Source of the DNA: a virus
Length of the DNA stretch: 21,633 nt
IMG/VR virus record: IMGVR_UViG_3300046675_000322
Span: 1-21,633 of that record
Reading direction: 5' to 3' (one strand)
The notes under the pieces were generated by a model. The model did no database searches. It was not told the DNA's origin and saw only the letters and a list, made by a program, of their open reading frames with translations. A program made the translations under genes and the position numbers. The first letter of the stretch is position 1, and each line of letters starts with the position of its first letter. Positions 1,998 through 4,210 of the stretch are shown in pieces.

Positions 1998-2174
1998 ATG
2001 GCAAACCGAACTTTCACCGTGACGTACTTGACCTCTTTGGGCGAGGTCTCCAAGGACGTCACCGCGCAGGACTTCCGGCATGAGCCCAACTTCACGATCT
2101 TCGCTGACGAAGAGGGGTTCGACGTCTTCTCCGTTCACAACGATTCGCTCCTTCTCGTGGACGGCGGAGCATGA
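1998..2174 (+). CDS. Small conserved hypothetical protein
   Basis: The predicted protein has 58 residues from ATG at 1998, preceded by GGGGAGA (1990-1996). The stop overlaps the Tad2 start (ATGA, 2171-2174). The sequence has alternating hydrophobic residues (RTFTVTYLTSLGEV, then FTIFADEEGFDVFSVHNDSLLLVDG). This suggests a small all-beta fold of about five strands that begins with the modified base or backbone-exposed hairpin typical of tiny phage proteins. It has no known motif. Because it is translationally coupled to two anti-defence-like genes, it is a candidate third accessory factor, but this is by association only. Confidence 0.6.
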   Translation: MANRTFTVTYLTSLGEVSKDVTAQDFRHEPNFTIFADEEGFDVFSVHNDSLLLVDGGA

Positions 2175-2401
2175 ATTTCGGAGATGCGCTCACAGTGCTG
2201 AAATCCGGAGGCCGTGTTTACCGGTCAAACTGGAACGGCCGCAACATGTGGCTGGAACTTCAGGTGCCGGACGAGGATTCCAGGATGACGCTTCCCTACA
2301 TCTACATCAAGACAGTGGATGACCACCTTGTCCCTTGGGTGGTTTCACACAGTGATGTCATGGGTGAGGACTGGAGAGCTTCGGACGTGTGGAATGGTTG
2401 A
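2171..2401 (+). CDS. tad2: Tad2 family (DUF2829) anti-Thoeris protein
   Basis: The predicted protein has 76 residues. The sequence follows the DUF2829 pattern from end to end: MNFGDALTVLKSG at the start, then VYRSNWNGRNMWLEL (family: W-N-G-x-x-M-x-L), then PYIYIKTVDDHLVPWV and SHSDVMGEDW at the C-terminus. Established knowledge: Tad2 proteins form small oligomers that bind and hide cyclic ADP-ribose-type second messengers made by Thoeris TIR proteins, and some homologues bind cyclic dinucleotides too, so that the host's abortive response is not triggered. This copy is compact but contains all core blocks. It overlaps the previous gene by four bases and the next by eight, so it is made as part of a three-gene coupled unit. 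The family call is strong; activity against a particular Thoeris type is inference. Confidence 0.85.
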   Translation: MNFGDALTVLKSGGRVYRSNWNGRNMWLELQVPDEDSRMTLPYIYIKTVDDHLVPWVVSHSDVMGEDWRASDVWNG

Positions 2402-2645
2402 CAACCCGATCCTGGCGCACTTCGTCTACGACCACCTGCCGCCACATCTACGGGACGTCTCCAAGCCGATCTGCATCCTGGCGAAGAAATACGCGGCCGA
2501 GCTTCCGCCCTGCGCCGAACTCTCCGCCGGGCTACGGCTTCTCCTTCAGGCGAAAGACGCGCTGGTCCGCGCTGCGGTCGAGAAGGCTGCCGCCGACCCG
2601 AAGATGAACGCCCCTGCTGCGAAGCACTGGGGCGGCGCCACATAG
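2394..2645 (+). CDS. Acb2/Tad1-type hairpin-domain protein (candidate anti-CBASS/anti-Thoeris sponge)
   Basis: The predicted protein has 83 residues. I chose ATG 2394 rather than the in-frame ATG at 2319, which would lie deep inside tad2. The body is two amphipathic helices: LRDVSKPICILAKKYAAELP (residues 19-38) and AELSAGLRLLLQAKDALVRA (41-60). They are preceded by HFVYDHLPPH. This resembles the common phage family with a final (R/A)ELSxALxxLxxAxxxxxxA helix, which is related to Acb2 and Tad1. Known members soak up cyclic oligonucleotides made by CBASS and, for Tad1, Thoeris signals. The tail after residue 65 is probably disordered. The family match is from pattern memory and is moderate; the neighbouring tad2 raises its likelihood. 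Alternatively it is a related small helical protein with a different ligand. Confidence 0.55.
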   Translation: MVDNPILAHFVYDHLPPHLRDVSKPICILAKKYAAELPPCAELSAGLRLLLQAKDALVRAAVEKAAADPKMNAPAAKHWGGAT

Positions 2646-2671: not shown

Positions 2672-4210
2672 GTGAGCAACGAGCTGGCCGAATACGGTCT
2701 GGACCCCGAGCAGCTGGATATCGGGCAGCTGAAGAACCTGGTCGAGCGCCTCACCCGGATGGGCGACACCAAGCGCCTGAAAGAGGTGCTGTCGCTCACC
2801 AAATCCGCTGTGGACAAGAAGCAGGCGCTGGGCCGCCAGGAACGCTGGGCGGCAAGCCCTGCGGTATGGGCTCAGGAACGTCTGGGGCTCACCCCGTGGT
2901 CTAAGCAGCGCGAGATCATGGAGTCGGTGCGGGACCGGCGCAAGACCGCCGTGCGCTCCTGCCACTCCATCGGCAAGTCTTTCGTCGCCGCCATGATCGT
3001 GTGCTGGTGGTTGGACTCCTCGCTTCCCGGCGACGCTTTCGTGGTGACGACCGCTCCTACGGCTGCGCAGGTCCGGGCGATCCTCTGGCGGTATATCCGC
3101 CGGATGCACAAGGACGCCGGTCTTCCCGGCCGCACCAACCAGACCGAGTGGTTCATCGACGATGAGCTGGTGGCCTTCGGCCGCAAGCCCGCTGACGACA
3201 GCGAATCCTCTTTCGTCGGTATCCATGCACCTCGGGTGTTGTGTCTCATTGACGAGGCCTGCGGCGTGGCCGACAACCTGTGGATTGCCGCTGAGGCTAT
3301 TACGACGGGCCCCGAATGCCGCATCCTGGCCATCGGGAACCCCGACAACTCCGCCAGCCATTTCTTCACCGTTTCCCAGCCGGGCAGCGGATGGAGCACG
3401 CTGAAGGTCTCCGCATACGACTCCCCGAACTTCACGGGCGAGAAAGTCTCCGAACGCGCCGCTCTTTCCCTTATCTCCCCGGAATGGGTGGAGGACAAGA
3501 AGCTGGAGTGGGGCGAGGACAACCCACTCTACCGCTCCAAGGTTCTCGGGGAGTTCTCCGAGGACGCGGTCGATACCGTGGTGCGGGCTTCCGACGTGGC
3601 GGCCTGTCGGTTGGACTCCGAAATACTGTACAGCCCCGCTGACCTTTCCCCCGTGGAACTCGGCGTGGACGTCGGCGGCGGCCAGGACGAAACGGTGATC
3701 CGGGAACGGCGCGGAATGCTGGTCGGCCGGGAGTGGAAACTGCGCTCCGACCGGCCGGAGAAGATCGCCCCGCTGATCCTTCGCGCTATCCGGGAAACCG
3801 GCGCCACTGCGGTGAAGATCGACTCCATCGGTGTGGGATTCGGCGTGATCGGCGAACTCCGCAACGCTGCCTCCCGGCGTGAGCACAACGCGCAGATCAT
3901 CGGCATCAACGTCTCGAACACCCCGCTGGACAAGAAGAAGTTCGTCAACTTGCGGGCGGAACTGTGGTGGAACATCGGCCGCGAGATGTCTTCCTCGGGT
4001 GCCTGGGATCTGTCGAAGATGGAAAGCGCTGATGACACCTGCGCCCAGCTGCTGATGCCCCGGTGGGACCTGGATTCCAAGGGCCGTATCCGGGTGGAAC
4101 TGAAGGACGATATCCGTAAGCGCCTGAGCGGGAAGTCTCCGGACTCTGCCGACGCGTTGCTCTTGGCCTACGCAAGCGGCCTCCGTCCGAGGATAAGGAT
4201 TCTCCGATGA
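2672..4210 (+). CDS. terL: Terminase large subunit (ATPase and nuclease)
   Basis: The predicted protein has 512 residues from GTG at 2672, preceded by GGGGAGG (2660-2666). It is the motor that pumps DNA into the prohead and cuts the concatemer. Residues 1-55 form a charged helical N-terminus. The ATPase part has a Walker A-like loop, RSCHSIGKS (95-103), and a Walker B, VLCLIDEA (189-196), with D194-E195 as the metal and catalytic acids. It also has a coupling-type segment around RILAIGNPDN. The C-terminal RNase H-like nuclease shows the expected acidic residues: D333 in GVDVGGGQDE, D384 in KIDSIGVGFG, and D491/D494 in SPDSADALLLAYA. Length is typical. The stop overlaps the next gene (ATGA). 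Confidence 0.95.
   Translation: MSNELAEYGLDPEQLDIGQLKNLVERLTRMGDTKRLKEVLSLTKSAVDKKQALGRQERWAASPAVWAQERLGLTPWSKQREIMESVRDRRKTAVRSCHSIGKSFVAAMIVCWWLDSSLPGDAFVVTTAPTAAQVRAILWRYIRRMHKDAGLPGRTNQTEWFIDDELVAFGRKPADDSESSFVGIHAPRVLCLIDEACGVADNLWIAAEAITTGPECRILAIGNPDNSASHFFTVSQPGSGWSTLKVSAYDSPNFTGEKVSERAALSLISPEWVEDKKLEWGEDNPLYRSKVLGEFSEDAVDTVVRASDVAACRLDSEILYSPADLSPVELGVDVGGGQDETVIRERRGMLVGREWKLRSDRPEKIAPLILRAIRETGATAVKIDSIGVGFGVIGELRNAASRREHNAQIIGINVSNTPLDKKKFVNLRAELWWNIGREMSSSGAWDLSKMESADDTCAQLLMPRWDLDSKGRIRVELKDDIRKRLSGKSPDSADALLLAYASGLRPRIRILR

Follow-up and report, generated by a model that had tools for sequence, protein, structure and literature searches.

Two kinds of phage proteins that sequester nucleotide signals of host defence are relevant to the genes described here. 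Tad2 is understood to act as a tetramer whose intersubunit pockets would take up cyclic ADP-ribose-type signals of Thoeris, so that the effector ThsA would not be switched on, and a long insertion enables certain Tad2 proteins to bind cyclic dinucleotides as well (PMC12043709). In T4 Acb2, Y8 is required for dinucleotide binding, which is abolished by Y8A, and F82 near the C-terminus stacks on the ligand (F82C; PMC12657218). Comparisons of pocket residues were based on these two reports, for Tad2 and Acb2, respectively.

The window, that is, the whole stretch of 21,633 nucleotides analysed here, represents a 21.6-kb virus (IMGVR_UViG_3300046675_000322) having no near relatives among isolated phages. 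Its terminase large subunit (TerL) shared 39–43% identity with TerL of Arthrobacter phages and one faecal phage, the nearest isolates by this protein being mostly Arthrobacter phages at about 40% identity; the host is probably an actinobacterium. Upstream of the TerL gene, three small ORFs were joined by end-to-start overlaps (Table 1), the first 4 nt of tad2 overlapping the stop of the 58-aa ORF. The original prediction, made from the letters of the window, had described the latter two as overlapping genes for a Tad2 protein and an Acb2/Tad1-like protein, and both were located where it had placed them. It had also set them between the two terminase subunits, which held on the TerL side but not on the other: ORF 341–1003, the expected small subunit (TerS), had no match in Pfam and a single PHROG match, phrog_645, labelled RNase E, so that one of the two, this label or the assignment as TerS, is in error. 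Further small ORFs lie between ORF 341–1003 and the TerL gene. The 58-aa ORF, once put forward as a third member of a signal-sponge unit, had no match in the Pfam or PHROG libraries and no link to any known family, and that proposal was not borne out.

Table 1. Features of the tad2 region (positions in the window)
Feature	Position (nt)	Strand	Basis or remark
ORF, 58 aa	1998–2174	+	Kept in the relative L003; no known family
tad2, Tad2-like (DUF2829, PF11195), 76 aa, ATG start	2171–2401	+	PF11195 and PDB Tad2 matches; predicted sequestering of Thoeris cyclic-ADPR-type signals
Helical-hairpin protein, phrog_1761/phrog_5120 family, 83 aa, ATG at 2394	2394–2645	+	PHROG match, profile-profile comparison, AlphaFold2
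8-nt overlap of tad2 and hairpin gene (ATGGTTGA)	2394–2401	+	Sequence
Terminase large subunit (context)	2672–4210	+	phrog_2, E=2.5e-35

The product of tad2 matched PF11195 (Tad2-like) with E=1.3e-22 and 80.6 bits, against a curated cut-off of 25 bits, over positions 1–71 of 73. It also matched the solved structures of SPO1 Tad2 Gp34.65 (E=3.8e-14) and of Tad2 in 8v3e (E=4.9e-11), which confirms the DUF2829/Tad2 identity that had been predicted. In an alignment of 25 sequences including that of the window, the residues R18, W21-N22-G23, M39, L41-P42-Y43, P55-W56, S59, D62, and D67-W68 were invariant; the conserved motifs WNG, PW, SxxD, and DW were thus present in the window protein, which carried substitutions at two otherwise conserved places, N20 for G and H60 for Q. 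By sequence, the 76-aa protein is a member of the Tad2 family, and it very probably works in the known manner.

The 83-aa protein matched phrog_1761 (E=1.5e-23) and phrog_5120 (E=5e-18), a family represented by at least 264 records of isolated phages and by more than 550 virus contigs, including phages of proteobacteria and of actinobacteria, with genes situated variously beside capsid, lysis, or early genes. The family is annotated as of unknown function; nearly all listed records read "hypothetical" and one "structural protein", and no earlier functional assignment for phrog_1761/5120 was found. The AlphaFold2 model comprised helices at residues 5–9, 17–36, and 41–67, with pLDDT of 96–98 at residues 11–60; the two-helix form that had been predicted was thereby supported by the two long helices, but the signature given for it, ELSxALxxLxxA, actually reads ELSAGLRLLLQA, with G in place of A, and this glycine (G46) is invariant in the family. 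Among 52 members, the invariant set consisted of F10, H14, S23, E42, G46, R48, K54, D55, and R59, while the window protein deviated from near-invariant residues by K49L, unique among the 52, and E52Q. Comparison with the 88%-identical relative in L003 gave a dN/dS of 0.08, indicating purifying selection. The C-terminal helix was much more tightly conserved than that of Acb2, and this could reflect a different function. A search of PDB sequences with the 83-aa protein returned designed proteins only, and a PDB search with the 52-member profile gave nothing convincing, the best match being 8jaj Gp22 (E=0.009). Two longer ORFs of the family, L017:3004–3513 and L082:2761–3189, may be fusions with extra C- or N-terminal regions, their start sites being putative.

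Searched against Pfam, the 83-aa protein had no match at E<=10, including to PF24729, the Acb2/Tad1 hairpin domain (cut-off 27 bits), a result that the original prediction had itself named as speaking against the Acb2/Tad1 assignment. Weak matches to PF24729, all below the cut-off, were given by 8 of the 52 family members (best E=0.046), whereas the control, T4 Vs.4 (Acb2), scored 71.4 bits (7e-20) against the same library. These results, and the generic helical matches obtained with the hairpin model in Foldseek and VIA-align (designed and unrelated hairpins at the top, Acb2 not listed, the fold being very simple), fit the view that the protein is unrelated to Acb2/Tad1 and resembles them only as any amphipathic hairpin carrying an LRKL motif would. 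A search of Tad2-carrying records with PF24729, however, led to L176, a genuine PF24729 protein in which the segment LAKEILRLVPDCADRSAALRKLREVRMDC resembles LAKNMDLELPDCAEKSAGLRKLLEAKDC of the hairpin family. When the 52-member hairpin alignment (A5) was compared by hhalign with an alignment of 17 PF24729 proteins, the relatives of L176, the probability was 92.6% (E=4.5e-7) and the score 36.1, that is, 12 standard deviations above 200 column-shuffled controls (mean 10.0, sd 2.1, maximum 18.6); the reversed profile scored 11.3. In the stored version of the PF24729 alignment (A6, 16 members), all 16 matched PF24729 (best 1.4e-14). Reciprocal hmmsearch of 16,193 stop-to-stop ORFs from all loci was nearly exclusive: after its own members, the A6 profile retrieved almost only hairpin-family proteins, the exceptions being in L177, itself a weak PF24729 match, and L130, and beyond its own members A5 retrieved A6-type proteins only, barring one fragment in L079. 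A PF24729 member used alone as query recovered L198, a hairpin-family locus. The AlphaFold2 model of a PF24729 member had helices at 8–11, 19–42, and 47–68, so that, as in the hairpin model, a short helix came first and two long ones followed, and Foldseek with this model placed T4 Vs.4 and Acb2 near the top. Since hhalign of the hairpin profile with the PaMx33/T4 Acb2 set detected no similarity (0.2%), the connection to Acb2 is made solely by way of the other PF24729 subfamily. On the shuffled controls and the reciprocal retrieval, an unrelated hairpin is very improbable and already disfavoured. The profile comparisons indicate that the phrog_1761/5120 hairpins are divergent, distant relatives in an Acb2/Tad1 hairpin superfamily that extends beyond the Pfam model; the predicted Acb2/Tad1 likeness thus survives as distant homology but not as a Pfam match of the protein's own.

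Residues of the Acb2 pocket were retained in part. Y8 of T4 Acb2 aligned with Y12 of the hairpin, a position at which 50 of 52 members have Tyr or Phe. F82 had no counterpart, the tails of 49 of the 52 members being free of aromatic residues, and W80 of the window protein falls in a non-conserved tail modelled with low confidence by AlphaFold2. Binding of a signal exactly as in T4 Acb2 appears unlikely, but with an invariant set of its own, no F82 counterpart, and purifying selection, a sponge having a pocket unlike that of Acb2 is plausible. The putative binding surface would consist of the N-terminal F10-x-Y12-x-H14-L-P together with E42, G46-L-R48, A-K54-D55, and V-R59 of the C-terminal helix.

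Gene neighbourhoods were compared for evidence of coupling. The closest relative, L003, aligned with nt 1935–2143 and 2394–2638 of the window, which flank tad2, but had no tad2 itself, and its hairpin gene starts directly after the homologue of the 58-aa ORF. On the other side, between the hairpin and TerL genes, L003 carries a WDGH-domain gene (L003:3254–3526; PF25311, 34.1 bits) that the window does not have. Cassettes of one gene are thus gained and lost on either side of the hairpin gene. PF11195 was found in 2 of 50 hairpin-family records (L005 and L085) and phrog_1761 in 1 of 50 Tad2 records. In both of the former, Tad2 lies within 1 kb of the hairpin gene, an arrangement expected at about 0.002 by position alone, the numbers being small: in L085, a prophage, an Acb2 gene (PF24729, 9.8e-16), a Tad2-domain gene (7e-16), and the hairpin gene are consecutive, and in L005 the Tad2-domain gene is two genes upstream of the hairpin.

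PF24729 exceeded its cut-off in 9 of 79 Tad2 records versus 1 of 71 for the hairpin family (P=0.02, Fisher test). Of 8 independent co-occurrences, 6 had the genuine PF24729 gene at most 1 kb from tad2 and 5 had it within about 200 bp, where position alone would give 1.2 (P about 1e-4) and 0.4, respectively, these being small counts from relatives of one Tad2 query, with uniform positions assumed and with virus contigs that may be fragments. In L109, L113, L122, L156, and L174, Tad2 genes adjoin genuine PF24729 genes, some overlapping or a few bases apart. Genes for Tad2 and for Acb2/Tad1 hairpins are thus found near each other in various phages, and the window adds a further example in which the hairpin is a divergent one. 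The co-occurrence that had been expected for this pair was thus seen between Tad2 and PF24729 genes but hardly with phrog_1761. Likewise, of the coupled, broad-spectrum unit originally proposed, the clustering of Tad2 and PF24729 genes beyond chance speaks in favour, whereas the hairpin gene without tad2 in L003 and the scarcity of PF11195 in hairpin-family records speak against it.

A systematic third partner was sought in 50 hairpin records, of which 4 had PF13876 and 1 had PF25311 over the cut-off; neighbour clustering around hairpin genes was mostly among related phages. The gene just upstream of the hairpin in L025, L026, L070, L043, L040, and L056 encodes a Gp49-like protein related by BLAST to the PF13876 protein that L005 carries. 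An N-terminal domain, MTRGxYNxYRGWxxPxDENPxDxGYLVxY, is carried by the Gp49-like protein in L025, L026, and L070 and is fused to Tad2 in L005 (L005:1855–2955) and L085 (L085:2499–2927). It seems that one and the same position can be taken by either a PF13876 or a Tad2 domain, and by this exchange PF13876 may be a candidate counter-defence domain. In L130, a gene for a 193-aa protein (L130:1032–1613) follows a Tad2-fusion gene; it had a sub-threshold match to PF24729 (E=0.024) and a match to the A6 profile (4e-6), and is possibly an enlarged Acb2/Tad1-type sponge.

On balance, we regard the two genes as a probable counter-defence pair, by a modest leaning, in which a Tad2 sponge is accompanied by a divergent relative of the Acb2/Tad1 hairpins that would also hold a small nucleotide signal. 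A single-gene tad2 cassette would have come to lie directly upstream of, and overlapping, a gene from a widespread phage hairpin family, the overlap would let both proteins come from one message, and the 83-aa protein would oligomerise through its antiparallel hairpin, possibly serving as a second sponge beside Tad2. The hairpin family could, on the other hand, descend from the Acb2/Tad1 superfamily and have another conserved phage job, for example as an oligomeric adaptor or as a regulator with a host protein or nucleic acid as its target, with Tad2 alone as the sponge. Such a role would agree with the charged and polar residues H14, S23, E42, R48, K54, D55, and R59 being invariant across phages of proteobacteria and actinobacteria, with the varied settings of the genes, with the rarity of Tad2 in these phages, and with the missing ligand-stacking aromatic; weighed against the clear homology to PF24729 proteins, the retained N-terminal aromatic, and the nearness of Tad2 or Acb2 genes in the window, L005, and L085, we consider it possible but on the doubtful side.

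The adjacency itself may be accidental, a mobile tad2 cassette having inserted by chance in front of a hairpin gene already in place, and the two genes being functionally independent. L003, with both flanks matched around an absent tad2 and a WDGH-domain gene beyond the hairpin gene, and the single phrog_1761 among 50 Tad2 records are as expected from such an insertion; the close spacing in both hairpin-family records with Tad2, few as they are, and the clustering of Tad2 and PF24729 genes across phages speak against it, and an accident of this kind is quite conceivable while falling somewhat short of an even chance. Extending the reading as a sponge pair, we tentatively propose, with less than even confidence, that phrog_1761/5120 may form a third branch of the hairpin sponges beside Acb2 and Tad1, with a conserved binding surface peculiar to it and perhaps a separate signal molecule, and that phages may assemble interchangeable sponge modules of the Tad2, Acb2, and phrog_1761 types side by side.

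If the hairpin binds a nucleotide signal, a widespread "hypothetical" phage protein gains a testable function, and the close conservation of its sequence among phages whose hosts differ greatly would indicate a widely shared signal. Even if it is not a sponge, the neighbourhoods common to Tad2 and Acb2/Tad1-hairpin genes provide a simple rule for finding signal-sequestering proteins from gene neighbourhood.

Compared with the known systems, the window Tad2 resembled SPO1 Gp34.65 and its relatives in the full-length domain match and the strongly conserved motifs. The long beta-strand insertion with a cyclic-dinucleotide site that some Tad2 proteins possess (PMC12043709) was not visible in the short 76-aa protein; with so short a beta region, the simplest prediction, judged from length, is a sponge for Thoeris signals only, and a broad spectrum by way of this protein is unlikely. 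The 83-aa protein is a direct member of phrog_1761/phrog_5120. With Acb2 (T4 Vs.4 and the PaMx33 type/PaP2 p26) it shared a short N-terminal helix, a long antiparallel hairpin, and the N-terminal aromatic aligned to Y8, whereas the C-terminal aromatic/KP tail of Acb2 was missing and similarity of the sequence profiles was undetectable. With Tad1 it had the hairpin domain superfamily in common, PF24729 being named for both Acb2 and Tad1, but lacked the N-terminal beta domain. The stand-alone PF24729 hairpins of L178–L197, of the type FxYHxP...AALRKLRE...MTANASI, were homologous to the hairpin family by profile comparison, with equal helix order and the common segments F-x-Y, LA, and [ED]-x-[ST]-A-[AG]-L-R-K-L-x-E; the hairpin family differed from them in having Y-x-H-L-P instead of Y-H-x-P, a shorter first long helix, and, past the common core, AKDC-hVRA instead of MTANASI.
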